Shown here one piece after another: positions 48,227 to 64,000 of a DNA stretch of 64,000 nt. Every line of letters starts with the position of its first letter. Within the stretch, counting starts at the first letter, position 1. The stretch is from Acidobacteriota bacterium. Its GTDB lineage: Bacteria; Acidobacteriota; Terriglobia; Terriglobales; Acidobacteriaceae. The notes under the pieces were generated by a model, which was not told the DNA's origin, did not search any database, and saw nothing but the letters and a program-made list of their open reading frames with translations. Made by a program: the position numbers and the translations under genes. Where the stretch lies: the NCBI GenBank assembly GCA_021792135.1, contig JAJYVF010000030.1:1-64000 (forward strand). The letters run 5' to 3'.

Positions 48227-49072
48227 ATGCACGTTGGAATCAACATGGAATTTGTCCGCTCAGAGGACAAGTCTTTCGAGGCAGGTATCAGCTGCGCATC
48301 GGAGCTCGGATATCGGTATGTGGAGCCAATGGTGCACAACGGGCGCGAGCTGCTGAGCGAGGCAGGGTATTTTCACTCTTTCTCGATGGATAATGATCCG
48401 CTGGAAATGAAGGATGTTCTCGACCGCCATGGCCTACGCGCATCCGGGCTTTCTGCACATTGTCCGCTGATGCGCCCTGAAATCGCAGTGCCGTACATCG
48501 AGAAGGCGATACGCTTCGCCGCTGTGATCGGCGCGGCTGCGGTCAACACCGATGAGGGCGTGCGGCCAGAGTGGCTGGATGACGAGCAATGCTTTCAGGT
48601 CATGCGCTACACGCTCAGGAAGGTACTGCAGATTGCGGAACGATATGGAATTTGCGTCGCCATTGAACCGCACCAGAGTATTACGACAACCACCGAAGGG
48701 CTTCTCCGCATAGTCAATCTTGTACCATCGCCGATGCTGAAAGTGAATTACGATACCGGAAACGCATATCTGGGTGGGGCGGACCCGTATGAGGGCCTCC
48801 GGGCAGTGATGGACAAGCTGGTTCACCTTCATGCGAAGGATATTTCGATCAATCAGGCTGCCACCGACAAGGGAAAGCTCACGGGCACTCCAGTAGGTTG
48901 TGCGTGCGGCGAGGGAGTTATCGAGTGGGAGCGGGTTATCGCAATTCTGCAGGCGGGTGGTTATGACGGTGTGCTCTCCGTCGAATGTGGTACGCGCCGC
49001 CAGGCAGCGAGCAGTCTTGCGTATCTCGAAGGATTACTGAAGCGCCAGACAACTGCAACACTGGGAAAATAG
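48227..49072 (+). CDS. Sugar phosphate isomerase/epimerase-like TIM-barrel protein (xylose isomerase-like)
   Basis: 281 residues from ATG 48227 (AGAGG six bases upstream); the frame is open back to 48119, but MHVGINMEFVRSED is a typical family start. AP-endonuclase-2/xylose-isomerase-like barrel with metal ligands Glu in VAIEPHQSITT, Asp in VNYDTGNAYLGG, His in HLHAKDISI and Glu in LSVECGTRRQA. Cytoplasmic by sequence. First of five closely spaced genes (next start four bases after its stop). Such proteins process keto sugars or inositols. Confidence 0.9.
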   Translation: MHVGINMEFVRSEDKSFEAGISCASELGYRYVEPMVHNGRELLSEAGYFHSFSMDNDPLEMKDVLDRHGLRASGLSAHCPLMRPEIAVPYIEKAIRFAAVIGAAAVNTDEGVRPEWLDDEQCFQVMRYTLRKVLQIAERYGICVAIEPHQSITTTTEGLLRIVNLVPSPMLKVNYDTGNAYLGGADPYEGLRAVMDKLVHLHAKDISINQAATDKGKLTGTPVGCACGEGVIEWERVIAILQAGGYDGVLSVECGTRRQAASSLAYLEGLLKRQTTATLGK

Positions 49073-49076
49073 GCCG

Positions 49077-49934
49077 ATGATCTTCCTGAGAGCTGGCGTC
49101 CTTGGCTGCATAGTAGCAGCGGTCCTCGTTGGCTGTGGACTGTGGGCGGAGCACAAAGGGTCGGGAATGCCGGCTCAGCAATCTTCAGGTGATCTTACCG
49201 CCCAGGAACGCGCGATCTGGCCGAATCTGCCACCCAACCAGGATCCTGCTGGTGTGGCGCGCGGGAAGATACTCTTTGAGAGCAACTGCAGTTTCTGCCA
49301 CGGCGCCGATGCGACGGGGGGGAATGGCGGACCGGATCTTATCCGCTCGGTGCTTGTAAACCATGATGACCACGGGAATCTGATTGGGCCTACCGTTCAC
49401 AACGGCAGACCGGGTCGGGGGATGCCTGCATTCAGGAATCTGACGGACGCGCAGATCAGCGATTTGGTCGCCTATCTTCATCAGCAGAATCGAGATGACA
49501 GGATCCGCATCACTTACAAGGTCGGCCAGGATATCACGGGAGACGTCTCGGGGGGGAAGACCTATTTCACAGAACACTGCGCTCAGTGTCACTCAACGGC
49601 GGGCGATCTGGCCGGGATAGGGAGCAGGTACGAACCGGGCGTGCTGCAGCAATTATGGCTGCGCGGCGGCGGGAGCGAATCCCGCTCCGATCCGCGATTG
49701 CGGAAGACCGTGAGGGTCTCGCTTGCCTCCGGTCAGCGGTTCGAGGGAACGCTGCAGCATCTGGATGAGTTCAATGTCGCGTTCTATGACGCCGACGGCT
49801 ATCACAGTTTCGAACGGGGGCCCGGCGTGACCGTCACAGTGCATGATCCGGTCGCGGCCCATCAGGAGCTGCTGGGGCATCTGACGGATTCGGATATGCA
49901 TAACGTCACCGTATATCTGGAGACGCTGAAATGA
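49077..49934 (+). CDS. Di-heme cytochrome c lipoprotein with a beta-barrel insertion
   Basis: 285 residues. Lipobox-like LVGCG at the end of the N-terminal hydrophobic stretch. First class-I heme domain: ESNCSFCHGADATGGNGGP, with LTDAQISDLVAYLHQQN as its C-terminal helix. Second heme CAQCHSTAGDLAGIG (near residue 165) is separated from its likely C-terminal helix LTDSDMHNVTVYLETLK by about 80 residues. The insert includes VRVSLASGQRFEGTLQHLDE and NVAFYDADGYHSF, which look like a small beta barrel. It overlaps the PQQ dehydrogenase by four bases and probably takes its electrons. Confidence 0.93.
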   Translation: MIFLRAGVLGCIVAAVLVGCGLWAEHKGSGMPAQQSSGDLTAQERAIWPNLPPNQDPAGVARGKILFESNCSFCHGADATGGNGGPDLIRSVLVNHDDHGNLIGPTVHNGRPGRGMPAFRNLTDAQISDLVAYLHQQNRDDRIRITYKVGQDITGDVSGGKTYFTEHCAQCHSTAGDLAGIGSRYEPGVLQQLWLRGGGSESRSDPRLRKTVRVSLASGQRFEGTLQHLDEFNVAFYDADGYHSFERGPGVTVTVHDPVAAHQELLGHLTDSDMHNVTVYLETLK

Positions 49935-51490
49935 GGCTCATGCTTTCTTTCCTGGCCCTGGGGCTGATGGCGCTTCCGGTGGCAGGCCAGGCGGCAGGAT
50001 CCAGCAGGGCACTGCAGGCTTCTGGAGCATCCTGGCCCACTTATAACGGTGATTACTCAGGCCGTCGATTCAGCTCCCTTTCCCAGATCAATGCTTCGAA
50101 TGTCAGCAAGCTCAGACTGTCCTGGAGTTATGACTCCGCGGGTGTTGCCATCAAAGCAACCCCGCTGATGGTTCATGGTGTTTTGTATGTTGCTGTTCCC
50201 GACCACGCGTGGGCACTGGATGCGCGGACAGGCCGCCTGCTGTGGACCTGGAACAATAAGTCCCGAGGCGGGACACATATCGGGAACCGGGGAATGGCGA
50301 TAGACGGAACCTGGCTCTTCCTGGTCACGCCCGACGACTATCTCGTCTCACTGGACGCGACAACGGGCAAAGAACGGTGGCGGGTGGAGATTGCTGATCT
50401 GAAGCTGGATTTCTTCTGCACCGTTGCGCCGATTGTGATTCGTAACCATGTGCTGGTGAGCCCAAGTATCGAGTCGACCGATAATCGCGGGTATCTGGAC
50501 TCCTATGACCCGGCTACAGGGAAACTGCAGTGGCGGTGGTATGCAACACCCAATCCGGGCGCGCCGGGGTCGGAGACATGGCCGAACACGGATGCACTGA
50601 AGCACGGGGGCGGAGCGATCTGGATTCCGGGAACCTATGATCCTGAGCTGAACCTCTATTACTTTGGGACGGGTAACCCGCAGCCTGTGATGGCAGGGCA
50701 GGGAAGAAAGGGAGCTGACTACTGGGCGAACTCGATCGTGGCGCTCAATCCCGACACAGGCAAGATGGCCTGGTTTTACCAGACGACTCCGCATGATACC
50801 CATGACTGGGATTCAGCCGAGACACCGGTGCTGTTTGATGGAGTCATTGCGGGAAAGAAGCGGAGACTGCTGGGTCAGGCAAACCGGAACGGATACTACT
50901 TTGTTCTGGACCGCACGAATGGCCACCACGTGGCGACGGCAGAATTTGTAGCGAATAACTGGGCCAGAGGAATCGATGCTCTTGGTCGTCCGATCGAGGA
51001 TCCCGCAAAGATGCCGCAGCCCTCAGGGGTGCTGGTATTCCCTTCGGAGGGAGGAGGAACGAACTGGTTTCCACCGAGTATGGATCCGGAAACCGGTCTC
51101 TTCTATATCCGTGTGACGCGGTCGGCCGCTGTGTTTTATCTGACAGATACCAGACCAAAGCCGGAAGCGTGGGGAGGCATCGACAAATCCGTTTGGGAGG
51201 GGCCGTCTTCGATTGAGGCGGTGAATGCCGCCACTGGCAATAGCGTCTGGGAGCATGACTCGGGAAAGGGTGCCTCGTCCGGTCTGCTGACCACGGCGGG
51301 CAAACTGCTCTTTGGCGGGGACAATTCAGGAAACGCTGTAGCGCTGGATCCGGCAACCGGTCGCACGCTATGGCACGTGAATCTGGGAGAGAACATGCTG
51401 AACGGCCCGATCACTTATGAGATCAATGGGAAGGAATACCTTCTGCTGGCGGCGGGCGCAAAGCTATTCGCCTTCACCTTACCTCAGTAG
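49931..51490 (+). CDS. Periplasmic PQQ-dependent dehydrogenase (quinoprotein)
   Basis: 519 residues, ATGA overlap with the cytochrome. Signal MRLMLSFLALGLMALPVAGQ. The beta-propeller shows tryptophan-docking repeats: DARTGRLLWTW, DATTGKERWRVEI, DPATGKLQWRW, NPDTGKMAWFYQ, NAATGNSVWEHD and DPATGRTLWHV. The PHDTHDWDSAETPVL segment carries the Asp expected at the PQQ/Ca site. The adjacent-Cys disulfide of classical methanol/ethanol dehydrogenases is not visible; only one Cys (DFFCTVAP) is present. Substrate probably an alcohol or sugar. Shorter than alcohol dehydrogenases (about 570-700) and without its own heme. Confidence 0.93.
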   Translation: MRLMLSFLALGLMALPVAGQAAGSSRALQASGASWPTYNGDYSGRRFSSLSQINASNVSKLRLSWSYDSAGVAIKATPLMVHGVLYVAVPDHAWALDARTGRLLWTWNNKSRGGTHIGNRGMAIDGTWLFLVTPDDYLVSLDATTGKERWRVEIADLKLDFFCTVAPIVIRNHVLVSPSIESTDNRGYLDSYDPATGKLQWRWYATPNPGAPGSETWPNTDALKHGGGAIWIPGTYDPELNLYYFGTGNPQPVMAGQGRKGADYWANSIVALNPDTGKMAWFYQTTPHDTHDWDSAETPVLFDGVIAGKKRRLLGQANRNGYYFVLDRTNGHHVATAEFVANNWARGIDALGRPIEDPAKMPQPSGVLVFPSEGGGTNWFPPSMDPETGLFYIRVTRSAAVFYLTDTRPKPEAWGGIDKSVWEGPSSIEAVNAATGNSVWEHDSGKGASSGLLTTAGKLLFGGDNSGNAVALDPATGRTLWHVNLGENMLNGPITYEINGKEYLLLAAGAKLFAFTLPQ

Positions 51491-51501
51491 AGAAGGGTTT
51501 C

Positions 51502-52485
51502 ATGATGCGCATAACCAGTAGGCGGGATTGCCTGAAGACCATCGCGATGGGAGCTGTCGGCCTGGCGCCGCAGCTGTCGCGCTTTGCATCCGCCGAGCTG
51601 CAGTCGCGGATCAGGATTGCGCTGGGTGAGTATTCCTTCAACACCGACTATCGGGCGGGCCGCTATGATCCGCTTCAGCTGGCCAGTATCACTCGCAAGC
51701 GCTTCGGGATGCGGGCGATTGATTACGTGTCGAGTTTCTGGGCCGACAAGGCGAGGAACCAGGAATTCCTTCGCGGGATGAAGCAGCGCGCCGCAGACAA
51801 TGGCGTGGCGAATCATCTCATTCTCGTCGATCTGCAGGGCCCGCAACTGGGCGATCTGGACAAGGGCCGAAGGGAAGCAGCGATTCAGGAGCACCGGCCG
51901 TGGCTGGATGTGGCCGCATTTTTGCATTGCAGCGGCATTCGCGTGAATCTGAGCGGTTTTGACCTGAATGGTTTTGGAAGGCCGGGAAACAAGCAGGCGG
52001 TCGGCGACGCTGCGGTGCAGGGTTACGGGCGGCTGCTGGAGTATGCTGCGCATTCCAACCTTCAGGTGCTGGTTCAGAACCACACAGGTTATAGCTGTGA
52101 TCCGGACTGGCTCGTCGGGATAATGCGGCGGGTCGATAATCCGCTGGCGGGCATCGAAGCGGACCCGGGGCACTTTCAGGAGATCTTCTTTTCGCAGGGG
52201 CCACACCACCGGGAAGTGCAGGGAGAGAGCTTCGATCTTTATGCAAGCTGGGCAAAGCTGATGCCCTATTCCCGGGCGCTGAATGCGAAGACTCACGCGT
52301 TTGACGCGGCTGGGAATGAAACTACCATGGATTACCAGAGGATTATGGGCATCGCGAACAAAGCCGGTTACGCGGGATATATCGGGATTGAGTGGGAGCC
52401 GGAAGGTGAAGGACTGAAGATGTCGGATTCTCAGGGAATCGAGGCCACCGCGAAGCTGCTGAGGAGGTACGGTGCGGCGGAATAG
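51502..52485 (+). CDS. Tat-exported TIM-barrel protein, xylose isomerase-like
   Basis: 327 residues. Tat signal TSRRDCLKTIAMGAVGLA near residue 5, cleaved probably after RFASA. The AP_endonuc_2-like barrel follows: ALGEYSFNT, MRAIDYVSSFWADKARNQEF, VQNHTGYSCDPDWLVGIMR, IEADPGHFQEI and YIGIEWEPEGEG, providing Glu/Asp/His ligands. It is the exported relative of the first gene in this operon, implying chemistry on both sides of the inner membrane. ATG follows GAGAAGGGTTTC, 11 bases after the PQQ gene. Confidence 0.88.
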   Translation: MMRITSRRDCLKTIAMGAVGLAPQLSRFASAELQSRIRIALGEYSFNTDYRAGRYDPLQLASITRKRFGMRAIDYVSSFWADKARNQEFLRGMKQRAADNGVANHLILVDLQGPQLGDLDKGRREAAIQEHRPWLDVAAFLHCSGIRVNLSGFDLNGFGRPGNKQAVGDAAVQGYGRLLEYAAHSNLQVLVQNHTGYSCDPDWLVGIMRRVDNPLAGIEADPGHFQEIFFSQGPHHREVQGESFDLYASWAKLMPYSRALNAKTHAFDAAGNETTMDYQRIMGIANKAGYAGYIGIEWEPEGEGLKMSDSQGIEATAKLLRRYGAAE

Positions 52486-53410
52486 TGTGAGCATGAGGAC
52501 GGCGGTGGTGGCCATCGTCATGGTGGCCCTGAGTATGCCGCTCATTGCCCAGGATCTGGCACACAGGATAGCGCTGTTCAAAAAGGGCGCAATTCGTGTG
52601 CTGATCCTGTCGGGCGAGAACAACCACGACTGGCGCACGACCACACCATGTCTGCGGAACCTTTTGCTGAATACGGGGCGGTTTGACGTTCGCGTGAACG
52701 AAGAGCCAACCGGCATGACTGCAGCAACGCTTGCGGCCTACAATGTCGTTGTCCTCGACTACAACGGTCCGCGCTGGGGCCCTACCGCAGAGAAGGCGCT
52801 CTCAGATTTTGTCCGCTCCGGCGGGGGACTGGTGGCGGTCCACGGCGCCAACTGGGCTTTCAGCGGGCTGGTCATCCTGGGAGCCCATCACATCCCGACG
52901 GGCATGATGGAGCCGGCATGGCCTGAGTACAAGGAGATGCTGGGGGGCGTATGGTCTGATCAGCCGCCCGCCTCAGGTCACGCGCCACGCCACAAATTCA
53001 TGGTGAACATTGTCGACCGGAACCATCCAATAACGGCCGGTCTGCCCGCCAGCTTCGAAGCGGACGATGAGCTCTATCACAACCTGCATATGATTCCCGG
53101 AGTGCATATCCTGGCAACCGCCTACGACGATCCGAAGTTTAAAGGCGCGGGTCCGCAGTCGCCTCCGGCGAAGGGCGGCTGGCCGCATCTCGATATGACT
53201 CCCACAGGCAGGAACGAGCCGTTGCTGTGGACCGTGCGCTACGGACGAGGAAGAACCTTCTACACGGCGCTTGGGCACGATGTAAAGGCGGAGGAGATGC
53301 CGGGATTTTCCACTACCTTCGTGCGGGGAGTAGAGTGGGCGGCGACCGGAACGGTCAGGGCTCCTGAGCCGCCGCTGCGCTCATGGGCACAACCTTTGGC
53401 CCCGCGGTGA
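52472..53410 (+). CDS. ThuA-like domain protein, exported
   Basis: 312 residues. The GTG at 52472 has GGAGG five bases upstream and overlaps the previous gene by 14 bases; ATG 52493 is the alternative. Signal-like TAVVAIVMVALSMPLIAQ. ThuA fold (class-I glutamine-amidotransferase-like): VLILSGENNHDWRTTTP, VVLDYNGPRWG, SGGGLVAVHGANWAFSG, NHPITAGLPASFEADDELYH and VRYGRGRTFYTALGHD. ThuA in rhizobia takes part in trehalose use through 3-keto sugars. Its last 56 bases overlap the convergent AraC gene. Confidence 0.92.
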   Translation: MRRNSVSMRTAVVAIVMVALSMPLIAQDLAHRIALFKKGAIRVLILSGENNHDWRTTTPCLRNLLLNTGRFDVRVNEEPTGMTAATLAAYNVVVLDYNGPRWGPTAEKALSDFVRSGGGLVAVHGANWAFSGLVILGAHHIPTGMMEPAWPEYKEMLGGVWSDQPPASGHAPRHKFMVNIVDRNHPITAGLPASFEADDELYHNLHMIPGVHILATAYDDPKFKGAGPQSPPAKGGWPHLDMTPTGRNEPLLWTVRYGRGRTFYTALGHDVKAEEMPGFSTTFVRGVEWAATGTVRAPEPPLRSWAQPLAPR

Positions 53411-54527
53411 TCACCGCAGAGCCCTCAGGCGAGCCCGAACTCCGGGTGTGGCTTGTGCTGAACTGAGTTGGCGTGGCCCCGAAGCGCTGCCGGAACAGAG
53501 TGGCGAAATATTGGCTCGATGAGAACCCGCAGGCCATCGCAATATCGGTGACACGCATGTTCGGCTGATCGGCCAACAAGCGGGAGGCACATTCCAACCG
53601 GCACTGATTGAGGTAGTGCAGGGGCGGCAGGTTAGTCAGCTCTTTCACGTACCGGACGAACTGAGTGACCTTCAGACCACACCTGGCAGCCATGGACTCA
53701 ACTGACCAGGGCCGAGCCAGACTGCGCCGGTCGACCGCGAGCTGGCTCAGGAAAAGATGCACGGATTGGCGGGATCCCGTCCATAGCTGATCGGAGTGAG
53801 CGGGCTCAGCGCGAAAGAGCTCCAGCAGGCACAGAAGCAGATCGTTGATGCGTATCGCCAGCCGCGAGATATCCTTAACTGCATCGTGCCTTTCCACGGC
53901 ATGAGAAATCTGCTGAAAACAGTGGCGTATATCGGCGGAAACGCGCAGGACCAGACGTCTCCGCCTGAGCAGCTCGCATCTGATCTGATCCAGTTCATGC
54001 GGGCTGAGCAGCAGCCAGCTCGGCCACACCCAGGAGTCGTCATGATGACGGACCCCCACATCCAGAATGAGCCAGTGCAGCCTGCTTGGTCCTATGTTGG
54101 GCTTTCCAACGCGATGAATCTGCCAGGGGCGCGTGACAGCGATATCGCCGGGCTGGACCGTGAATTCGTCTGCGTCTACGCTGAAATCAAGTCTCCCGCC
54201 TTCCAGGTAACTAATCTCAATTCCTTCATTGCGATGCCAGGGCAGTCCCCACGTTTGTTCACGGTGGGCATCCCAGTGGCCCAGACTCGAGACGCCCGGC
54301 AGGACTCCGGGATCGAGTCTATGCCCGGGGTAGTGTCCGCGCGCGAGCGCCGCAAACTTAACCTGGCCATATCGAACAGCCTCGACCAGCGGACTACAGG
54401 CATCTGCAAGATACCTGCTTGACCTGTCCTGATAGCTGGGTGCCAGAGAGCACGAAGGAGCAAGACAAATTGCAGAGTTCATTGGTTGCTGGAGAATCGA
54501 AACGCACCGAATTCTACACCGATGCAT
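53355..54527 (-). CDS. AraC family transcriptional regulator
   Basis: 390 residues as an upper limit; the start is uncertain (ATG 54527 or ATG 54482, neither with a good ribosome binding site). The N-terminal cupin-like sensor has GIEISYLEGGRLDFSVDADE and PGDIAVTRPWQIHRVG (about residues 100-145). The C-terminal double helix-turn-helix covers about residues 275-375: WSVESMAARCGLKVTQFVRY and VTDIAMACGFSSSQYFATLF, then RQRFGATPTQF. A short tail rich in Ser/Ala/Pro follows. Sugar-sensing is likely. It is the only minus-strand gene in the locus and probably controls the flanking operons. Confidence 0.92.
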   Translation of the reverse strand: MHRCRIRCVSILQQPMNSAICLAPSCSLAPSYQDRSSRYLADACSPLVEAVRYGQVKFAALARGHYPGHRLDPGVLPGVSSLGHWDAHREQTWGLPWHRNEGIEISYLEGGRLDFSVDADEFTVQPGDIAVTRPWQIHRVGKPNIGPSRLHWLILDVGVRHHDDSWVWPSWLLLSPHELDQIRCELLRRRRLVLRVSADIRHCFQQISHAVERHDAVKDISRLAIRINDLLLCLLELFRAEPAHSDQLWTGSRQSVHLFLSQLAVDRRSLARPWSVESMAARCGLKVTQFVRYVKELTNLPPLHYLNQCRLECASRLLADQPNMRVTDIAMACGFSSSQYFATLFRQRFGATPTQFSTSHTRSSGSPEGSAVITAGPKVVPMSAAAAQEP

Positions 54528-54842: not shown

Positions 54843-57800
54843 ATGAACCCCATCGGAGGGTGTATGAAAAAAAAGACAAACAAATTGGGAGGGTCTGCAC
54901 GGCAGACACCATCTGTCGAATTGAATGCCCGGAAATCTGACGTGCTGTATCCAGTCCATGCAGCGTGTCGGGTGTTGGCCGCGTTGCTCCTCATCGTTGC
55001 TCTGGTCCCGGTCGGTCGAGCGCAGACCACGTCAGGCACCATTCTGGGCACTCTGACAGAACAGACCGGTGCCGTGCTGCCCAATACTCAGGTCAGGCTG
55101 ACGAATACCGCAACGTCGGATACACGGGTTACCAACACCAACCAGGCGGGCTTCTATCAGTTTGTGAATGTGCCCCCCGGCACCTACGACCTCACGGTTA
55201 CCAAACAGGGGTTCAAAACGCTCCATCAGGGTCCCGTCAGCCTCCAGGTGGAGGGATCGCTCCAGATCAATCTCGCGATGCAGGTGGGGAGCCAGACCCA
55301 GACAGTTATTGTGAGTGCGCGGACTCCGCTGCTGCAGGCCGAAACCACCAGCCTTGGTGCGGTGGTCGATCAGCGCGAGACGAACGAGATTCCGCTCAAC
55401 GGCCGCAACCCCATGAACCTGACCGCCCTGGTTCCCTCCGTCATCCCGCAGGGGCAATCGATGGGAACACCCACCGGTACGAACCCGTTTGCCTGGGGCA
55501 ATTATCAGATCGGTGGCGGGATGGCCAATCAGAGCGTCACTTATCTTGACGGCGCGCCGGTCAACACTCTCTATGACAACATCACGGCGCTGGTTCCAAC
55601 GCAGGACTCGCTTCAGGAATTCAAGGTTGATACCAACAATCTCTCCCCCGAGTACGGGCATCTTGCCGGCGGTGCGATTAACTTCAGAACAAAATCAGGC
55701 ACCAACCAGATTCATGGAAGCCTCTGGGAGTTCCTGCGCAACAAGGTGCTGAACGCGAACACCTTCTTCAGCAATCAGGCTGGACTGGCACGTCCGGCCT
55801 TCACGCAAAACCAGTACGGGTTCAATATCGGGGGCCCGGTCGTGATCCCGCATTTGTACAACGGGAAAAATAAGACCTTCTTCTTTGTTGACTGGGAAGG
55901 ATTCGCACTCCGGCAGGGCGAAACCTTCACGGAGACCGTACCGACGGCAGCGGAGCGTACCGGAGACCTGTCCGCCCTGGCAACGCCCGTCTATGATCCT
56001 CTGACCACCTGCGGGGTCGCGGGTGGTCCCCCCTGCGCGCCCGGTACGCCGCAATACAACCGAACCGAGTTTCCCAACGCAGTGATTCCCTCGAATCGGC
56101 TGAATCCGACCGCTGTCGCCTATATGAAGCAGTTCTTCCCCATGCCCAACGTTACAGGCGGTCCTCTCGGCGTCAATAACTTTACGGCGAACGCCAGCAC
56201 GGGCGGAAATAACTACGAGACGGTTGCGCACATCGATCAGAATGTGTCGGAACAGCAGCATATCAGCGCCAGATACTCATATTGGGAAAACAACAATCTT
56301 CCGATCGACCCGATGGGAAATGGTATCTGCCAGGACCGCTGCGGCGAAACCTTCACGACGAACGACTTTGTCCTCGATGATACCTATTCCTTCAGTCCGA
56401 CGACCATTCTCGATATGCGAATCAGCTACATGCGATTCGTCTATCTGCGCACCGCATTGCTCACTAATTACAGTCTGACGAGCATCGGCATGCCTGCGTC
56501 ACTGCAGTCGCAGGTCGAATTTCCGGGGCCTCCGGTATTGAGCGTCTCCGGATTCGATACGGCCGGAACGTTCGGCAGCGCCGGCGCCGACAGCACCATC
56601 CACAACGCCACGGACACCGACCGCATCGCGGGAAATCTGACAAAGTTTATTGGAAACCATACGCTGAAGTTCGGCGGCGAGTATCAGCGGGGAACGTTTA
56701 ATTATGTGCAGACCAATAACTCGTCAGGGGCCTTCAGTTTCAACAATGGGTTCACCGCACAGAATCCTCTGAGCGGCGTGGGAGGACTCGGGCTCGCCTC
56801 TTTCCTGCTGGGATATCCGGACAGCGGAAATGTAGACACAGCGGCACCCATCGCGGCTGAGCAGCTCTATCCGGCGTTGTTCTTTAACGATGACTGGCGG
56901 GCGACCCAGCGACTGACTCTCCACCTGGGGATTCGGTGGGAGGATGACATTCCCTGGACGGAGCGGCACAATCGAATCAGCTTCTTCGATCCAACGATCC
57001 CCAATCCTCTCCTGCAGGGGGTGGTGCCCGGCAGTTATCCCGGTGCGGTCGAACTGGTCGGTTCCAGCGTGCGTAGTTCGCGCTACAACAACTATAACGA
57101 TCTGATGCAGTTTTCGCCTCGCGTTGGCCTGGACTTCGCTGCAACACCTGAGACCGTCTTCAGCATGGGATACGGAATTTTCTGGCTCCCGACGGACGTT
57201 GGATTTGCCACTTCGCCGAACAACGACGCGATTAACAGCTTCTCTACGCCCTATACCGCATCCGTGAATAACGGCCTCACGCCGGTCAATAACATCAGCA
57301 ATCCCTTCCCGCAGGGCGGTATCATTGCCCCGCCGGAACGCAACCCCAGCTACCAGAGTATTCTGCTTGGAACCGGAGTTACGGAGAACTTCGTCAACAA
57401 TCCCTATCCATATGCGCAGCAGTGGAACGTCGGCGTTCAGCAGCAGATAGGCAGAACTCTTGCCCTGGATATTGCTTATGGAGGCGCGAAGGGAACGCAC
57501 CTTCCGTTATATGCCTTCCAGCAGGATCAATTACCGGATCAGTATCTGAAGATGGGGACCGCTCTCGATAATCCGGTAGCGAACCCTTTCTACGGAGTCA
57601 TCAATAAGGGCTACAGCCTGGGTGCGCCTACAATTCCGGAAGGGCAGCTGTTGCTGAAATATCCGCAATACTCCGGCGTATCGATTGCAAGCGCGGGAGA
57701 AGGGGATTCAACCTACAACTCGTTGCAGGTAAAGGTCCAGCAGCGTTTCTCCGGAGGGGCTTCGATTAATGCGGCTTACACCTGGTCGAAGCTGATCAGC

Positions 57801-58472
57801 AACACCGACACGCTGACTGCCTGGCTGGAACCCGCCACGGCCGGTGCCTATGGCGGCATCCAGGACAACAATAACCTGAAGGCGGAAAAGTCGCTCTCGA
57901 GCAACGACGCTACAAATCGTCTGGTCATCAGCTATGTCTACGACATCCCTGTGGGCCAGGGGAGGGCCCATCTGGCCAACGTCTCCCGAGGCCTGAACTA
58001 CGTCGTCGGCGGATGGGGGTTGGAGGGCATTACCACCCTCATGAGCGGGTTCCCGCTTGGATTCAGCACGAACCAGAATCTCACCAATTCATTCGGCGGC
58101 GGGTCCAGACCGAACTATGTCGCAGGTTGCGCCAAAGCGATAGGAGGTTCGGCGACTTCAAAGCTGAATGAGTGGTTCAATACCTCATGTTTTGCTCAGC
58201 CCGCGGCGTTTACGTTCGGCAACGAACCGCGCAACGATGCTCAGTTGCGAGCTCCGGGCGAGGCGGACTGGGATACGGCGATGTTCAAAAATTTCCCGCT
58301 TGACGCGGATGGGAAGAGGGAACTCCAGTTCCGTGCAGAGTCCTTCAATCTGTTTAACCGTGTTCAGTTCGGGTACCCCGGAACCACGCTGGGAACAGCA
58401 GGCTTCGGTATCATCAACTCGCAGGCGAATCTCCCCAGAATTCTGCAGTTCGCGTTGCGCATTAACTATTGA
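54843..58472 (+). CDS. TonB-dependent receptor, Oar-like, with carboxypeptidase-regulatory-like N-domain
   Basis: 1209 residues; GGAGGCCATCG precedes the ATG. A 38-residue N-region (MNPIGGCMKKKTNKLG) precedes the hydrophobic segment VLAALLLIVALVPVGRAQ. The CarboxypepD_reg domain (about residues 60-150) has GTILGTLTEQTGAVLPNTQV and GTYDLTVTKQGFKTL. Plug-like IPLNGRNPMNLTALVP and PEYGHLAGGAINFRTKSGTN follow, then the barrel, ending FALRINY. Role: import of a large ligand, here probably a glycoside destined for the downstream dehydrogenases. Paralogous to the receptor at 30684 in architecture but divergent in sequence. Confidence 0.95.
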   Translation: MNPIGGCMKKKTNKLGGSARQTPSVELNARKSDVLYPVHAACRVLAALLLIVALVPVGRAQTTSGTILGTLTEQTGAVLPNTQVRLTNTATSDTRVTNTNQAGFYQFVNVPPGTYDLTVTKQGFKTLHQGPVSLQVEGSLQINLAMQVGSQTQTVIVSARTPLLQAETTSLGAVVDQRETNEIPLNGRNPMNLTALVPSVIPQGQSMGTPTGTNPFAWGNYQIGGGMANQSVTYLDGAPVNTLYDNITALVPTQDSLQEFKVDTNNLSPEYGHLAGGAINFRTKSGTNQIHGSLWEFLRNKVLNANTFFSNQAGLARPAFTQNQYGFNIGGPVVIPHLYNGKNKTFFFVDWEGFALRQGETFTETVPTAAERTGDLSALATPVYDPLTTCGVAGGPPCAPGTPQYNRTEFPNAVIPSNRLNPTAVAYMKQFFPMPNVTGGPLGVNNFTANASTGGNNYETVAHIDQNVSEQQHISARYSYWENNNLPIDPMGNGICQDRCGETFTTNDFVLDDTYSFSPTTILDMRISYMRFVYLRTALLTNYSLTSIGMPASLQSQVEFPGPPVLSVSGFDTAGTFGSAGADSTIHNATDTDRIAGNLTKFIGNHTLKFGGEYQRGTFNYVQTNNSSGAFSFNNGFTAQNPLSGVGGLGLASFLLGYPDSGNVDTAAPIAAEQLYPALFFNDDWRATQRLTLHLGIRWEDDIPWTERHNRISFFDPTIPNPLLQGVVPGSYPGAVELVGSSVRSSRYNNYNDLMQFSPRVGLDFAATPETVFSMGYGIFWLPTDVGFATSPNNDAINSFSTPYTASVNNGLTPVNNISNPFPQGGIIAPPERNPSYQSILLGTGVTENFVNNPYPYAQQWNVGVQQQIGRTLALDIAYGGAKGTHLPLYAFQQDQLPDQYLKMGTALDNPVANPFYGVINKGYSLGAPTIPEGQLLLKYPQYSGVSIASAGEGDSTYNSLQVKVQQRFSGGASINAAYTWSKLISNTDTLTAWLEPATAGAYGGIQDNNNLKAEKSLSSNDATNRLVISYVYDIPVGQGRAHLANVSRGLNYVVGGWGLEGITTLMSGFPLGFSTNQNLTNSFGGGSRPNYVAGCAKAIGGSATSKLNEWFNTSCFAQPAAFTFGNEPRNDAQLRAPGEADWDTAMFKNFPLDADGKRELQFRAESFNLFNRVQFGYPGTTLGTAGFGIINSQANLPRILQFALRINY

Positions 58473-58655
58473 GTGGAGCAGTATGGGAGGCGGGGACCGT
58501 AGCCGATCCCCGCGAATGTGTGGTGCGGGAAGCGGCGGAGGCGGACGAGATGGTGGTGCTCAGACGGCCGTTCATGCCCATGGGTGAAGAGGCAGCGGCC
58601 GATCTGACATCCCATGTCCGTGTTCGCTTGTGGAAGATCGCTGCGGGGAGTTAGA

Positions 58656-59348
58656 TTGTCAGGGATGCGTCGACGGGATTTCGTGAAGAGCATTATGGCG
58701 GTGCCGGTGACGGCTCCGTATCTGCTGGGCGAGCAGGCGGCGACAACCCCGCCACCAGCCCAAACAGGGGCCGCCGCTCCACCTTCATCGCAGCCCGCGG
58801 AAACAGCAGCGGCGGCAAGCCAGCAGCGGCTCCTCGAGCCGAACGGGATGCAGATTGCCGCGTCGGTTCCGGACCAGTTTGCGCGCACGGAGGCACATTA
58901 TTTCAGCGACACGCAGTACGCGACGCTCAGGAAGATGTGCGAAGTGATGATGCCGTCGCTGAATGGTTATCCCGATGCCCTTCAGGCGGGGGCGCCGGAA
59001 TTCCTCGATTTCCTCATCGGCGCCTCGCCGCCGGATCGGCAGCAAATGTACGGCTCGGGCCTCGACCGGCTTAATTCCGAATCGCAGAGCCGCTTCAGGA
59101 TTCCCTTCGCCGAGGTGAGCGCGGAGCAGGCCGATGCGCTGCTGCGTCCGTGGCTGCGGGCCTGGATCCCGGAACATCCGCCGAGCGAGCCCTACGAACG
59201 CTTCATCAACCTCGCACATCACGATATTCGGACGGCAACCATGAATTCGCAGGTGTGGAGCGTGGCCGTCACCTCGGGCGGCGACCGGCCGCCTGGAGTG
59301 GGCATGTACTGGTCTCCGATCGATCCCGACATTCAGCGGTACGTCTAG
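58656..59348 (+). CDS. Gluconate 2-dehydrogenase subunit 3 family protein, Tat-exported
   Basis: 230 residues from a TTG at 58656 (GGGGAG five bases upstream); ATG 58665 three codons later is the alternative. Tat signal RRRDFVKSIMAVPVTAPYLL. A Pro/Ala/Thr/Ser-rich linker (about residues 25-70) precedes the conserved domain TLRKMCEVMMPSLNGYPDAL, APEFLDFLIG and RFINLAHHDIRTATMNS. In sugar and alcohol dehydrogenase complexes this small subunit chaperones and exports the FAD subunit. The next gene is a GMC oxidoreductase without a signal, as expected. Confidence 0.9.
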   Translation: MSGMRRRDFVKSIMAVPVTAPYLLGEQAATTPPPAQTGAAAPPSSQPAETAAAASQQRLLEPNGMQIAASVPDQFARTEAHYFSDTQYATLRKMCEVMMPSLNGYPDALQAGAPEFLDFLIGASPPDRQQMYGSGLDRLNSESQSRFRIPFAEVSAEQADALLRPWLRAWIPEHPPSEPYERFINLAHHDIRTATMNSQVWSVAVTSGGDRPPGVGMYWSPIDPDIQRYV

Positions 59349-59366
59349 CAGGGAGCTCTTGGGTAC

Positions 59367-60938
59367 ATGGCGCAGGAAATCGTGGATGTGTTAATTGTGG
59401 GCTCGGGACACTCCGGAGGGATGGCAGCCAGGATCCTGACGGAGAAAGGCATCTCCTGCCTGCTGCTGAACGCGGGGCCGGTGGTCGACTTCCGCAAGGA
59501 TCGCGAGCTGAAGCCGGCCTATGAGCTGCCCTACCGCGGCTTCAACATGCCCGGCCGGCTGCCGCATGTCTTCCAGGCGGACGAGTTCAATGCCAATGTG
59601 TGGGTCGATGAGAAGGAGGTTCCGTATACCTTCAACCCGCAGCACCCGTATAACTGGGTGCGCGTTCGCCTCTTCGGAGGCCGTTCGCTTTTTTGGGCGC
59701 GGCAGTCGTTTCGGCTAAGCAATTATGAGTTCAAGGCGAAGGATCACGACGGCTTCGGCGATAACTGGCCGATCGACCTTGGGGATCTGGCGCCTTACTA
59801 CTCCCGCGTGGAAGCGATCTTCCGCGTGCGCGGCCAGGCGGACCACCTTCCGCAGTACCCGGACGGTAACTTCGTCGTCGACGATTCGCCGTGGTCGGGG
59901 TCGATGCAGCGCTTCGTGAACGCAGGCACGAAGCTCGACGTGCCGGTCTGCAAGGCGCGCAGCGCGATGGGCGTCGACGGGCTAGCCAGCTCCATCAATC
60001 TGCTTTTGCCGGATGCGTTTAACACCGGCAGGCTCACGGCGATTCCTAACGTCGTGGTGCGCGAGCTCACCGTCGACAGGAACACCGGCCTCGTGAACGG
60101 CGCGCATTTCGTGGATCGCCATTCCCGGCGGGAGATGTACGTTCAGGCGCGGGTGGTGGTGCTGGCCGCGGGCACCCTCGAAAGCACGCGCCTGCTGCTG
60201 AACTCCGGACTGGCCAATTCCAGTGGCGTGCTGGGCCACTATCTGACCGATCAGGTCTACGGGCCGGGCATCATCTGCTCGGTTCCGGAGGCGCGCAACG
60301 GCAAGGGCTCCAATGGCATCATGGGCGGCAGCGCCCTGATTCCGCGCTTCCGAAACATCAATACGAAGGCCAAAAACTTCCTCCGCGGCTATGCGCTGAA
60401 TTGCTACAGCAGCCCCCGCGGCATGAGCCCGAGCGTCTTCCCCGCCTATGGCGCGGAACTGCAGAAGAAGCTGGACAGCTACGATGGCAGCGGGTTCGGC
60501 ACCAGCATGATGGGCGAGGTGCTGTCGTACTACAAAAACCACGTGAGCATCAACAAGAACGTGGTTGATGCCTGGGGCATTCCCGTCCTTGACGTCGAAA
60601 CGGCCTACACCGACAACGAATTCAACATGGCCCGCGACGCCGTGGACGTGAGCGTTGCGATGGCGGAAGAAGCCGGATTCGAGGTTCTCTGCAAGAACTA
60701 CGAGCCCAATCCGCCCGGGTACAGCATTCACGAACAGGGAACCTGCCGCATGGGCGACGATCCGAAGACCAGCGTGCTGAACAAGTGGAATCAGAGCCAC
60801 GACATCAGGAACCTCTTCGTCGTCGACGCCAGCAGCTTTGTCTGCGGCGGATGGCAGAACCCCACCATGACCATCCTGGCGCTCTCCATGCGTGCATCCG
60901 AGTATCTGGCCGAGCAAATGCGGCAGAGGAACCTGTGA
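59367..60938 (+). CDS. GMC family FAD-dependent oxidoreductase (sugar/alcohol dehydrogenase large subunit)
   Basis: 523 residues. FAD-binding [20 protein letters not shown] at the N-terminus, [20 protein letters not shown] in the cap region, and [20 protein letters not shown]. The GMC C-domain has the catalytic His in [19 protein letters not shown] and ends with [20 protein letters not shown]. No signal peptide; export probably rides on the Tat-bearing subunit upstream. Together with the cytochromes it resembles membrane-linked pyranose/gluconate-type dehydrogenases. Substrate unknown. The TGATG overlap couples it to the multiheme cytochrome. Confidence 0.93.
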
Positions 60939-61471
60939 TGCTGCGGATCCGGGAGGTCATCATACTGGTCCTGGCAGGGATCACTCTCTGCTGCGCGCGC
61001 ATGCCCGCGCAGGCCGGTGCTCCGCAGGCAACGGCACCGGCGCCCGTGGGGCCGGAGCAGCCCATTCACTTCAGTCACATGGTGCACGCCGACCAGCTGA
61101 AGCTGCCCTGCGAGTACTGCCACGTCATGTCCCGGTCCGGCGACACGCTTGCGATTCCCCGCGCGGGCATGTGCATGCAGTGCCACCAGACGATGGACAC
61201 CAGCAATCCGGAGGTGCAGAAGCTGGCCCAGTACGCGAAGAGCGGCTCCTTCATTCCGTGGGTGCGCGTCTATGAGCTGCCTTCCTTCGTCTCCTTCAGT
61301 CACAAAGAACACATCGAGCACGGCGCCACCTGCCAGGACTGCCACGGCGACGTGGCCCACGAGGAGCGCGTGGCGAAGGTCACCGACATCTCCATGGCGG
61401 GCTGCATGAGTTGTCATCGAGTGAAGCATGCCAGCCTCGACTGCAACACCTGCCATTTCCTGCAGCAGTAA
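60938..61471 (+). CDS. Penta-heme cytochrome c (cytochrome c3/class III-like)
   Basis: 177 residues starting at the ATG overlapping the GMC stop. Signal EVIILVLAGITLCCARMPAQ then AGA. Five CXXCH motifs: CEYCH, CMQCH, CQDCH, CMSCH and CNTCH. His-rich FSHMVHADQL and FSHKEHIEHG stretches supply distal ligands, as in cytochrome c3-type and menaquinone-reductase multiheme proteins. It would receive electrons from the GMC dehydrogenase in the periplasm. Confidence 0.93.
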   Translation: MLRIREVIILVLAGITLCCARMPAQAGAPQATAPAPVGPEQPIHFSHMVHADQLKLPCEYCHVMSRSGDTLAIPRAGMCMQCHQTMDTSNPEVQKLAQYAKSGSFIPWVRVYELPSFVSFSHKEHIEHGATCQDCHGDVAHEERVAKVTDISMAGCMSCHRVKHASLDCNTCHFLQQ

Positions 61472-61561
61472 TCGCACGCTTCGGCGGTGAACTGCGAACC
61501 CGATCAGCACCCGGCCGCCGCAGCCGAATCAGCGCCGGCGGCGGGGTTTCGAGGAGACGAT

Positions 61562-61885
61562 ATGAGCACATGGACGAGACTGCTTCTGCCGGGCGCCGTG
61601 GCGCTGCTTTGCTGCGCCCCGCTGCTGGCCCAGGACAGCGGCGGGGACCTCTTCAGGGCCAACTGCGCGCTCTGCCACGGGGCCGACGGAAAGAGCAACA
61701 CTCCGACCGGCAGGGCCTTCAAAGCGCCCGACCTGACCAGCGCCGCCGTGGCAAAGATGACGGATGCCGAGCTGACCAGGGTCATTCACGACGGCAAAGG
61801 TAACATGCCGGCCTTCGGAACCCGGCTCACGGACGCGCAGATCAGGAGCCTTGTCGCGCATATCCGCTCGCTCCAGAAGAAGTAG
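61562..61885 (+). CDS. Mono-heme class I cytochrome c
   Basis: 107 residues from ATG 61562 (GAGGAGACGAT upstream); an in-frame ATG at 61487 adds 25 non-signal residues. Signal TRLLLPGAVALLCCAPLLAQ. Heme motif CALCHGADGKSNTPTGRAFK, probable axial Met in KGNMPAFGTRL and C-terminal helix LTDAQIRSLVAHIRSLQKK. Small diffusible electron carrier. It sits 90 bases after the penta-heme gene, likely in the same operon. Confidence 0.94.
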   Translation: MSTWTRLLLPGAVALLCCAPLLAQDSGGDLFRANCALCHGADGKSNTPTGRAFKAPDLTSAAVAKMTDAELTRVIHDGKGNMPAFGTRLTDAQIRSLVAHIRSLQKK

Positions 61886-61933
61886 TTTTCCGGACATTTC
61901 AGCGGATTCATGCATGGCCTCCTGGAGCGACAG

Positions 61934-63550
61934 ATGTCGCGATGGTTCTTTTCCGGCTTCCTGACGGCGGCGTTGGGCGTCAGCATCTTTTCGGTGACGA
62001 CGCCGAAGGGAATCGATTTTGTTCATCAAAATTCTCCGACCAGGAACAAGTACCTGATCGAAACCATGGGCGGCGGAGTCGCCCTGCTTGACTACAACAA
62101 CGACGGGCTGCTGGATATCTTTCTTGTCAACAGCGGGTATCTTCAGCCGTCAATGTCCTCAGAGGATTTCAGGCGCAGCCAGCCGAAGTACTGGAACTGC
62201 CTCTACCGCCAGAACCCGGATGGAAGTTTTACGGATGTGACCAAAGCGGCGGGGCTGTCGGCGGTCGCAAACAGCGATTACGGGATGGGTGTAGCCGTCG
62301 GCGACTACGACAACGACGGCTACCCGGATATCTACGTCACCAACTACGGCAAAAATATCCTCTATCACAACAACGGCGACGGCACCTTCACCGACGTGAC
62401 GGAGAAGGCCGGCGTCGCAGCCGGAGGATGGTCGGTTTCGGCTGGCTTCTTCGACTACGACAATGACGGACGCCTCGACCTCTTCGTTACCCGCTACATG
62501 AAGTGGGATACGAAAAGCAATAAGGCCTGCGGAGGCAAGTGGAACACCTATTGCCCGCCCGGGGTGTTTCCAGCCACGACCAATATCCTCTACCACAACA
62601 ACGGCGACGGCACCTTCACCGACGTCAGCCAGCGTTCGGGGATAGCGGCTGTCAAGGGAAGATCGCTGGGCGTGGGTTTTGCCGATTACGACGGCGATGG
62701 ATTTACCGACATCTTCGTTGCCAATGACGGGATGCGGGAATTTCTCTTCCACAACAACGGCAACGGAACCTTCACCGAGCGTGCCCAGGAAGCGGGCGTG
62801 GCGCTGGATGGAGATGGAACTCCCTATGCCGGGATGGGCGTCGATTTCCGCGACTACGACAACGACGGCCGCCCCGACATCCTGGTGACGAACCTGGCGA
62901 AGCAGATCTATGCTCTCTACCATAATGATGGCGGCGGATCGTTCAGCTATCGCAGTCTGCAGGCAGGTCTGGGTACCCTCACTGCGGGAAGCTCCGGCTG
63001 GGGCGTCGGACTGGTAGACTTCAACAACGACGGCTGGAAGGACATCTTTGCGGCACAGGGCCACGTTATGGACAATGTCGAGAGCATCGATCCTGCACTC
63101 CACTATAAGCAGCCACCGCTGCTCGCCTTCAATCACGATGGCAGATTTGAACGCGCAGATGTGGGAACGGAGCTTCCTGTCGCCGGCAGGGGCGTTGCCT
63201 TCGGCGATCTGAACAACGACGGCAAAATCGATGTTGTCATGAGCGTTCTGGGAGGACGGCCGGAGGTTTTCTACAATCACTCCGCAGGTGGCAACTGGCT
63301 CACCCTCACGCTAATCGGCACGCGCAGCAATCGCGACGGCATTGGCGCGCGGGTGGTGGTCAATGGGCAGATGCAGAATGTAACCACCGCCGGAAGCTAT
63401 CTTTCCGCCAGCGATAAGCGGGTGCACTTTGGCCTTGGCGAGGCAACCCATGCAGACGTGGACATCTACTGGCCCTCGGGGGTCCACCAGTCCCTGAAGG
63501 ATGTCCGGGGCAACCAGTTTCTGGATGTGCGGGAGCCGAAGACGCCATGA
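61934..63550 (+). CDS. Exported CRTAC1/ASPIC-UnbV family FG-GAP repeat protein
   Basis: 538 residues from ATG 61934 (GGAGCGACAG upstream); ATG 61910 is possible. N-terminal hydrophobic segment WFFSGFLTAALGVSIFS, without twin arginines, unlike the paralogue at 35027. About seven FG-GAP/VCBS repeats with calcium loops: [66 protein letters not shown]-terminus ASPIC-like: GARVVVNGQMQNV and DIYWPSGVHQSLKDVRGNQF. It overlaps the following TPR gene by four bases. Confidence 0.92.
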   Translation: MSRWFFSGFLTAALGVSIFSVTTPKGIDFVHQNSPTRNKYLIETMGGGVALLDYNNDGLLDIFLVNSGYLQPSMSSEDFRRSQPKYWNCLYRQNPDGSFTDVTKAAGLSAVANSDYGMGVAVGDYDNDGYPDIYVTNYGKNILYHNNGDGTFTDVTEKAGVAAGGWSVSAGFFDYDNDGRLDLFVTRYMKWDTKSNKACGGKWNTYCPPGVFPATTNILYHNNGDGTFTDVSQRSGIAAVKGRSLGVGFADYDGDGFTDIFVANDGMREFLFHNNGNGTFTERAQEAGVALDGDGTPYAGMGVDFRDYDNDGRPDILVTNLAKQIYALYHNDGGGSFSYRSLQAGLGTLTAGSSGWGVGLVDFNNDGWKDIFAAQGHVMDNVESIDPALHYKQPPLLAFNHDGRFERADVGTELPVAGRGVAFGDLNNDGKIDVVMSVLGGRPEVFYNHSAGGNWLTLTLIGTRSNRDGIGARVVVNGQMQNVTTAGSYLSASDKRVHFGLGEATHADVDIYWPSGVHQSLKDVRGNQFLDVREPKTP

Positions 63551-64000
63551 TGCATATCCTGCTGGTGCTGGCTATGGGGTTGCAGAGCCCTTCTGCGGCG
63601 GCCATTGAGCACATCCAGGCTGGGGTGGCCGCAGACAGACAGGGGCAGCATGCGGCAGCTATCGATGAGTTCAGGAAGGCTGCTGATCTTGCGCCCGATT
63701 TCGCGCCTGCCTTTATCGATCTCGGCGTCGCGTACATGAAGGAGAGCCGCTACGCCGATGCTGTCGCGCCCCTGCAGAAGGCGCTCACGCTGCAGCCCGG
63801 CACTGCGGAAGTGCAGGAGATGCTCGGCTATGCGTGGCTCTTCCAGGGTTACGCCTCGCGTGCGATTCCCTGCTTCGAGGCTGCGAAAGTGAAGGGCGGC
63901 CTGGGAATTGCGCAAGTGGAAACCGGCGACCTGGCCGATGCGATTGTGAACCTCCAGGCGGCTTTGCGGCAGCATCCGACCGATCCCGATCTGCTCTTCT
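63547..64000 (+). CDS. TPR-repeat protein, 3' truncated by window
   Basis: The first 151 codons are visible, open to the window end. The start overlaps the CRTAC1 stop (ATGA). Hydrophobic N-terminus MMHILLVLAMGLQSPSAAA suggests export. TPR units: HAAAIDEFRKAADLAPDFAP, RYADAVAPLQKALTLQPGTA and DLADAIVNLQAALRQHPTDP. This mirrors the TPR + CRTAC1 pair at 34080-36745 in reversed order. Confidence 0.88.
   Translation, partial: MMHILLVLAMGLQSPSAAAIEHIQAGVAADRQGQHAAAIDEFRKAADLAPDFAPAFIDLGVAYMKESRYADAVAPLQKALTLQPGTAEVQEMLGYAWLFQGYASRAIPCFEAAKVKGGLGIAQVETGDLADAIVNLQAALRQHPTDPDLLF

Follow-up and report, generated by a model that had tools for sequence, protein, structure and literature searches.

A locus of an Acidobacteriota bacterium that sets a GMC dehydrogenase complex beside a TIGR04528 quinoprotein and suggests a route of glycoside oxidation

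What reaction is served by a locus that encodes two different dehydrogenase systems alongside two TIM-barrel proteins and a ThuA-domain protein? The question is raised by a 64,000-nucleotide stretch of an Acidobacteriota genome (assembly GCA_021792135.1; 5.1 Mb, rated 100% complete), referred to here as the window, which comprises bases 1–64000 of contig JAJYVF010000030.1 (C47). The genes of interest split into module A (48227–53410, together with an AraC gene at 53355–54527) and module B (58614–61885), and the locus suggests a variant bacterial route of glycoside oxidation and cleavage. The reading favored here, held at about even chances, is that the locus joins two periplasmic glycoside-oxidation modules and that a quinoprotein in module A performs the step that falls elsewhere to an oxidoreductase of the Gfo/Idh/MocA family. 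Gene content, recurrent pairings, conservation of the active sites, the pattern of exchange, and the lack of PqqC and PqqE over their cut-offs are observed; which substrates are used, oxidation at C3, the path of the electrons, and the identity of the quinoprotein cofactor are inferred.

Organization of the two modules

A first-pass annotation of this DNA had listed two barrels (one exported by the twin-arginine translocation, or Tat, system), a ThuA protein, a Tat-exported subunit 3, a GMC oxidoreductase, a TonB receptor, and an AraC regulator. Their domains are borne out by the Pfam and NCBIfam profile scores, read against curated cut-offs, and every gene that it named is an open reading frame with the stated domain. 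Its heme counts also hold, with two, five, and one CxxCH motifs in the three cytochromes. Export signals were read by eye from the N termini of TIM1, TIM2, ThuA, subunit 3, and the GMC protein. The two barrels score 120.5 and 64.5 bits (cut-off 31.1).

Module A
48227–49072, forward strand: TIM1, an AP_endonuc_2 barrel with no export signal by eye
49077–49934, forward strand: CytA, a diheme cytochrome c that presumably takes up electrons from the quinoprotein
49931–51490, forward strand: quinoprotein-like dehydrogenase of family TIGR04528, a pyrroloquinoline quinone (PQQ) β-propeller
51502–52485, forward strand: TIM2, an AP_endonuc_2 barrel with the twin-arginine start SRRDCLKT and residues Q192-N-H194, D221, K263, and E297
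52472–53410, forward strand: ThuA-domain protein (PF06283; 132.4 bits, cut-off 33.4) with a Sec-like N terminus

Module B
58614–59348, forward strand: subunit 3 (Gluconate_2-dh3; 62.5 bits, cut-off 23.4) with the Tat start MRRRDF, presumed escort of the GMC protein
59367–60938, forward strand: GMC oxidoreductase dependent on flavin adenine dinucleotide (FAD), no signal visible by eye, with H455 and N498
60935–61471, forward strand: pentaheme cytochrome of the cytochrome c7 type, related to subunit A of Alternative Complex III
61565–61885, forward strand: monoheme cytochrome c

The grouping exceeds chance: CytA and quinoprotein, TIM1 and ThuA, and subunit 3 and GMC each recur as pairs elsewhere.

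GMC-linked barrels and the activity of module B

The neighborhood of the GMC gene was surveyed in the best 80 of 541 confirmed GTDB places (59–92% identity, every title acidobacterial) and around 11 GMC orthologs in relatives, two of whose loci span less than 10 kb. Subunit 3 precedes GMC in 78 of the 80 GTDB loci, both misses lying at contig ends, and is present at all 11 orthologs; 29 of the 80 have the pentaheme cytochrome no more than 150 bp from GMC, it is present at four of the 11, and a homolog of the monoheme cytochrome follows the pentaheme gene in loci L174–L179. A barrel occurs in 23 of the 80 loci. In 18, the barrel belongs to a single sequence cluster that lies within 1.6 kb of GMC in every case and within 150 bp in 12, and a twin-arginine start was recognized by pattern in 16 of these 18 proteins. 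The GMC proteins of L174, L175, L177, and L179, which are accompanied by such a barrel, are 81–82% identical to that of the window.

A profile of 13 cluster barrels matches 8tct, 8tcd, and 8tcs (E 1.5e-40 to 3.5e-39) and 8bvk (1.1e-33); 8tcd and 8tct are titled 3-keto-β-glucopyranoside-1,2-lyases, and 8bvk is the O-glycoside β-eliminase AtOGE. The fold of the cluster barrel aligns with the 3-keto-β-glucopyranoside-1,2-lyase AL1 at Z 29.8; the AlphaFold models of the barrels rest on four and 13 sequences. The invariant residues of the cluster, H168-x-H170, D200, H226, and E271, are ordered like the ligands and catalytic histidine of AtOGE, described as His132/His134, Asp163, His189, and Glu233 (PMC10628242), a correspondence made by motif and not by superposed structures. 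Because this Tat barrel homologous to 3-keto lyases lies close to GMC in 18 of the 80 loci, oxidation of glycosides at C3 is the likeliest activity predicted for the GMC protein. The genome of the window itself encodes a lyase-type barrel (372 bits, Tat start, HNH motif) on another contig, C67 (L296:1486–2589), a contig on which no subunit-3 match was found.

In the proposed mechanism of module B, the FAD-containing GMC subunit would be exported along with the Tat subunit 3 and would oxidize a glycoside, most likely at C3. Electrons would pass from GMC to the pentaheme and monoheme cytochromes and on to the respiratory chain, and the 3-keto-glycoside would then be cleaved by a β-eliminating barrel such as the close homolog on C67. 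His455 and Asn498 of GMC are invariant in the 11 orthologs, and subunit 3 has no convincing sequence relative in the PDB up to E 1. A LacI regulator and a PfkB sugar kinase stand beside subunit 3 and GMC in genome G044 and a near relative (L206:6982–9029; L041:8840–10888), which points to sugar catabolism. In locus L238 (9962–13813), tandem GMC genes (62 and 59% identical to that of the window) follow subunit 3 and precede a pentaheme cytochrome and a lyase-type barrel. Literature searches on ThuA with 3-keto-glycosides, on 3-keto lyases, and on GMC, subunit 3, and 3Fe-4S in Acidobacteria listed no paper recognized as describing this system.

The module A cassette and an apparent exchange of oxidoreductases

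Homologs of TIM1 and TIM2 were sought in a class sample of 299 genomes. TIM1 is found in 26 other genomes (best per genome, 54–75% identity); TIM2 has a 59% identical homolog in a single genome, G356, and homologs of 34% identity in two others. In G356, which belongs to another family, TIM1, CytA, quinoprotein, TIM2, and ThuA follow one another in the order of the window (74, 61, 77, 58, and 75% identity), and G350 has the same cassette except for TIM2, with two FG-GAP proteins encoded after it. TIM1 loci were read in 17 of the 26 genomes; these loci are related and not independent. All 15 that lack the quinoprotein have a Gfo/Idh/MocA gene near TIM1 and on its strand, separated from it by no more than 141 bp in 14 cases and by 710 bp in the other, whereas the Gfo/Idh/MocA profile has no match in the three loci with the quinoprotein, those of the window, G356, and G350 (0/3 versus 15/15, Fisher 0.001; 0/3 versus 14/15, 0.005). 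Four of the TIM1-adjacent Gfo/Idh/MocA genes were confirmed by Pfam, and the gap in L295 was taken from the TIM1 search position. Since Gfo/Idh/MocA stands by TIM1 in each TIM1 locus read that lacks the quinoprotein, the quinoprotein and CytA have apparently replaced this oxidoreductase. A Gfo/Idh/MocA enzyme, DgpA, is described as a glycoside 3-oxidizer (PMC11239390).

In 10 of the 15 loci without the quinoprotein, ThuA is the gene immediately after TIM1, and homologs of the AraC regulator (48–49% identity) adjoin TIM1 in L279 and L284. The ThuA proteins of the Gfo–TIM1–ThuA groups are longer, at 473–496 residues (L286:10552–12027, L287:10632–12122, L281:7984–9405), and the C-terminal part of the one in L286 has a weak DUF7408 match. 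TIM1 has the invariant residues E147-P-H149, D176, H202, and E253 in 12 homologs, with a mean column identity of 77%. The best fold match of the TIM2 model (mean predicted local distance difference test score 77) is 4ovx (Z 37.3, root-mean-square deviation 1.6, 267 residues aligned), a structure named as a relative of a C-deglycosidase subunit (PMC8563793). TIM2 was rejected as a 3-keto lyase, as it lies outside the lyase cluster, has QNH in place of HNH or ENH, and is unconserved at the third ligand position.

In module A, the TIGR04528 quinoprotein with its own diheme cytochrome would perform the oxidation carried out elsewhere by Gfo/Idh/MocA, the Tat barrel TIM2 and the secreted ThuA would act on the oxidized product outside, and TIM1 would act inside. 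The first-pass annotation had proposed a 3-keto-sugar pathway for the whole locus. That proposal is partly supported: for module B it gains from the relatives of the GMC gene that lie near a 3-keto-lyase-type Tat barrel, and for module A it is made plausible by the exchange with Gfo/Idh/MocA, in whose gene groups TIM1 and ThuA recur. The neighborhood as a whole set is not kept.

The quinoprotein and its cytochrome partner

The quinoprotein passes the NCBIfam model TIGR04528, “acido-empty-quinoprotein group A,” with 717.5 bits (cut-off 650). It had been annotated as a PQQ dehydrogenase; the quinoprotein gene stands, but at 390 bits it falls below the cut-off of 480 for the PQQ methanol/ethanol dehydrogenase model TIGR03075, and a plain PQQ alcohol dehydrogenase was rejected in favor of TIGR04528. 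The genome of the window holds at least five TIGR04528 paralogs over the cut-off, and the literature search found no paper under the TIGR04528 or acido-empty-quinoprotein name. The word “empty” was presumably chosen because the hosts seemed unable to make PQQ.

The cofactor site was compared in an alignment of 43 group-A sequences (that of the window included), 16 conventional quinoproteins of PqqE-positive genomes, and two solved references, with 1kb0 numbering. All 43 group-A sequences keep R122, W245, N263, D308, D310, R335, and N394, and invariance of all seven of these cofactor-site residues would arise by chance with a probability of about 4e-9 (35 invariant columns of 502). We take W245 to be the stacking residue, N263 a metal ligand, D308 the catalytic aspartate, and D310 the extra aspartate of lanthanide enzymes. 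The extra aspartate of this D-x-D motif is used as a marker of lanthanide quinoproteins (PMC11996626); two residues past the catalytic aspartate, it is present in 43/43 group-A and also in 16/16 conventional sequences, and it predicts, but does not prove, lanthanide use. Other positions differ between the two groups. Glu70, found in 15 of the 16 conventional sequences, is absent from all 43 group-A sequences (Lys in 35), and the vicinal Cys-Cys at the PQQ site occurs in 0/43 compared with 8/16. The metal ligand Glu185 is gone from its column in group A; one column earlier, where all 16 conventional sequences have Gly, there is Asp in 41, Glu in one, and Asn in one, and this shifted carboxylate could stand in for Glu185. 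A catalytic role for Lys70 was rejected, as Lys occupies that position in just 35 of the 43. By this comparison, the site appears remodeled yet strongly constrained.

Group-A surroundings were read in 40 loci from 20 genomes, covering 41 of 61 over-cut-off TIGR04528 matches, beside 15 conventional quinoprotein loci (L170 left out) and 20 random 20-kb loci from group-A genomes. The group-A counts are not independent because several loci are paralogs within one genome. In 37 of the 40 loci, the group-A quinoprotein has a CytA homolog no more than 200 bp away, compared with none of the 15 conventional loci, of which two (L160, L171) have one within 6 kb on the opposite strand, and none of the 20 random loci. 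Two heme motifs are present in 31 of 38 such CytA homologs and three in the other seven. In L103 (8802–11282), an N-terminal diheme cytochrome and a group-A quinoprotein are fused in one frame of 826 residues with two heme motifs. The strict conservation of the metal and catalytic site and the adjacent cytochrome in 37 of 40 loci indicate that the quinoprotein is probably redox-active. In L096 (6506–7921), a Tat-exported multicopper oxidase, a possible terminal electron acceptor, is encoded between a barrel and the CytA–quinoprotein pair.

ThuA genes occur within 6 kb of the group-A quinoprotein in nine of the 40 loci, compared with 0/15 conventional and 0/20 random loci (Fisher 0.02). AP_endonuc_2 barrels occur within 6 kb in 12/40 group-A and 0/15 conventional loci, yet four of the 20 random 20-kb loci contain one. 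The window genome has three ThuA genes over the cut-off, each of them no more than 2.3 kb from a group-A gene; this pattern, noticed after the fact, has a probability of about 3e-7 if placement is random. Enrichment of Gfo/Idh/MocA around group-A quinoproteins as such was considered and rejected (9/40 versus 4/20 random loci).

PQQ supply

Profile searches of the window genome gave a best PqqC score of 52.6 bits (cut-off 240) and no PqqE match at E 1e-50. With neither gene over its cut-off, the PQQ dehydrogenase label is unsafe; it is doubtful as to the cofactor and less so as to the redox role. Among 120 genomes (that of the window and 119 relatives), TIGR04528 is over the cut-off in 26, PqqC in 16, and PqqE in 19. 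PqqE occurs in two of the 26 group-A genomes, compared with 19 of 120 overall (Fisher p 0.24) and with 11 of 40 genomes that have sub-cut-off relatives alone (p 0.06), and avoidance of PQQ producers by group-A genes was rejected as not significant. The window genome also carries two conventional-type quinoproteins with the D-x-D motif (L154, contig C46), which makes scavenged PQQ plausible. The cofactor of the group-A quinoprotein would be scavenged PQQ or a related compound, held at a lanthanide-type metal site.

Do the two modules belong together?

A quinoprotein lies near GMC in seven of the 80 GTDB loci. One of these, in L252, was dropped as conventional (E70, CC, GGE), reducing an initial count of seven to six loci with a group-A-like quinoprotein and CytA within 5 kb, an arrangement also present in G044. 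L203 and L210 were left uncounted, as CytA is at the locus edge in both (in L203 with a 70-residue quinoprotein piece). None of the 20 random loci contains a group-A-type quinoprotein. The earlier remark that two dehydrogenase systems in one locus are unusual is therefore fair. Its expectation that the GMC–subunit 3 pair would keep company with ThuA and these barrels failed: no relative of ThuA, TIM1, or TIM2 was seen near GMC at any of the 11 orthologs (L041 has a barrel, but from a different subfamily), and three of the best 80 GTDB loci contain ThuA. Because G044 is alone among the 11 orthologs and no GMC module is present in the stretches read in G356 (16 kb) and G350 (15 kb), a joint function rests on the six GTDB loci and G044, and joint working of both modules is the weakest step of the proposal.

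Several further observations weigh against two cooperating glycoside-oxidation modules. Neither barrel of the window falls in the lyase cluster; TIM2 has QNH, whereas its two distant relatives have ENH and the lyase-type barrels have His. After 4ovx, the fold matches of TIM2 mix epimerases and C-deglycosidase subunits at Z 24–28 (the latter at about 24–26). The unassigned barrels 3l23 and 3obe match the lyase-type barrel nearly as well as the lyases do, and by fold equally, with IolE proteins matching more weakly. The exchange of oxidoreductases is not universal, as L083, L088, L095, L096, and L099 hold Gfo/Idh/MocA, ThuA, and a barrel together with a group-A quinoprotein, and the Gfo profile is broad enough to match both group-A and random loci. 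The solved structures nearest to GMC are fructose and glucose dehydrogenases, and the CytA–quinoprotein pair is near GMC at one ortholog in 11.

Alternative explanations

The first alternative is that the modules are adjacent by accident, module A having been acquired horizontally and being unrelated to the GMC operon. This explanation, which is compatible with the others, is a real possibility, although we lean away from it. Signs of horizontal transfer are present: none of the 26 other genomes with TIM1 homologs belongs to the family of the window, and the other sampled genomes of that family gave no match to TIM1 or TIM2 at E 1e-40; the quinoprotein clade of the window, G356, and G350 spans three families with support 1.0; and the guanine-plus-cytosine content of TIM1 is 0.56, compared with 0.61 for the window. 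The isolated case of G044 among the GMC orthologs also fits. Against it stand the six GTDB loci and G044, in which a group-A-like quinoprotein and CytA lie within 5 kb of GMC and subunit 3, and the lack of such a quinoprotein in the random loci.

An ordinary oxidation of sugars or alcohols is the second alternative and is, in our view, rather unlikely. Here, GMC would be a dehydrogenase of the fructose or glucose type, the quinoprotein would oxidize alcohols or sugars with PQQ obtained from other soil bacteria, and the barrels and ThuA would be sugar isomerases of an unrelated pathway. The closest solved chains of GMC are indeed the large subunit of fructose dehydrogenase (E 3e-28) and glucose dehydrogenase (4e-24), followed by pyranose oxidase and by 7qf8, titled “GMC oxidoreductase family protein,” which we take to be a glycoside 3-oxidase. 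The cysteine motif of fructose dehydrogenase binds [3Fe-4S], and this motif is absent from all 11 GMC orthologs; the 3-keto lyase homologs beside GMC in 18 of the 80 loci also argue against an ordinary oxidation. For the quinoprotein, PQQ scavenging is described as common to many bacteria (PMC12124388), another survey credits 16 of 38 XoxF genomes with the ability to make PQQ (PMC10875860), and two conventional-type quinoproteins are encoded on C46 despite the lack of PqqC and PqqE over their cut-offs. Against PQQ uptake, the PQQ importer PqqU is reported, among Acidobacteria, in Vicinamibacteria only (PMC12124388), a survey result and not one from this genome.

A truly empty quinoprotein, serving as a structural or binding β-propeller without a redox cofactor while the cytochrome serves another protein, would agree with the absent vicinal cysteines, Glu70, and Glu185, with the missing PqqC and PqqE, and with the NCBIfam name itself, but is made improbable by the seven site residues retained throughout group A, the carboxylate that could replace Glu185, and the cytochrome that is adjacent in nearly all loci and fused in one.

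Comparison with known systems

The LacABC lactose 3-dehydrogenase of Caulobacter crescentus reportedly consists of a GMC protein, a subunit 3, and a cytochrome. Similar to what is proposed for module B, it is a three-component system that oxidizes glycosides to 3-keto-glycosides in a catabolic route (PMC9007349). The window differs in its pentaheme, c7/ActA-like cytochrome, and some relatives add a barrel of the β-eliminating type. A DUF1080 hydrolase has been proposed to be encoded near LacABC (PMC9007349); the three over-cut-off DUF1080 matches of the window genome are on other contigs.

In fructose and FAD-dependent glucose dehydrogenase complexes, the small Tat subunit is an escort and the cytochrome is a triheme class I subunit. 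These complexes (PDB 8k6k, 6a2u) share with module B the GMC subunit nearest among solved structures, the H455/N498 pair, and the Tat subunit 3, and differ in having the [3Fe-4S] cysteine motif and in lacking a pentaheme cytochrome. The AtOGE operon of Agrobacterium (PMC10628242), AL1 and BT1 (8tcd, 8tct), and the C-deglycosidases (PMC8563793) likewise place xylose-isomerase-like barrels beside an oxidoreductase, and AL1, BT1, and AtOGE resemble the barrels that accompany GMC in relatives in sequence, fold, and motif residues. Unlike in these pathways, the first step here would be carried out by a periplasmic, cytochrome-linked FAD enzyme, and the barrels of the window itself belong to other subfamilies.

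The quinoprotein is a member of TIGR04528 group A by score; new here are the cytochrome partner, the ThuA and barrel context, and the apparently replaced Gfo/Idh/MocA. Lanthanide PQQ alcohol dehydrogenases (PedH, 6zcv/6zcw; XoxF) belong to the same propeller family and likewise have the catalytic Asp and the additional Asp of the D-x-D motif. Unlike PedH and XoxF, group A lacks the vicinal cysteines and mostly has Lys for Glu70; its metal carboxylate seems to have moved by one residue, and the window genome has neither PqqC nor PqqE above the cut-off. As a speculative extension, to which we give rather low odds, group-A quinoproteins may be a new class of periplasmic, cytochrome-linked dehydrogenases of glycosides, perhaps acting at C3, that replace the NAD-type Gfo/Idh/MocA enzymes in barrel–ThuA operons; they would have a lanthanide-type site and use scavenged PQQ or a non-PQQ cofactor, in acidobacterial hosts of which most lack PQQ synthesis. 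If correct, this would assign a role to a large paralogous family named “empty,” and the oxidize-then-eliminate breakdown of glycosides would extend to respiratory, cytochrome-linked enzymes of abundant soil bacteria.

Neighboring genes

A TonB-receptor-type protein separates the modules, and an FG-GAP/ASPIC_UnbV protein and then a TPR protein follow module B.

53355–54527, reverse strand: AraC-family regulator (domain match), between the two modules
54843–58472, forward strand: TonB-receptor-type outer-membrane protein (CarboxypepD_reg and OMP_b-brl_4), presumed to import the substrate
61910–63550, forward strand: FG-GAP/ASPIC_UnbV protein (domain match), with relatives in TIM1/TIM2 loci L278, L287, and L294
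From 63547, ending at contig base 64605: TPR protein, continuing the module B run

Just upstream of module A, a GH31 glycoside hydrolase is encoded on the reverse strand (44683–47169); it may be a source of sugars or have no connection with the locus. Proteins of the FG-GAP/ASPIC_UnbV type are found repeatedly in the vicinity of either kind of module, as at 61910–63550 in the window and in L278 (11097–14902).

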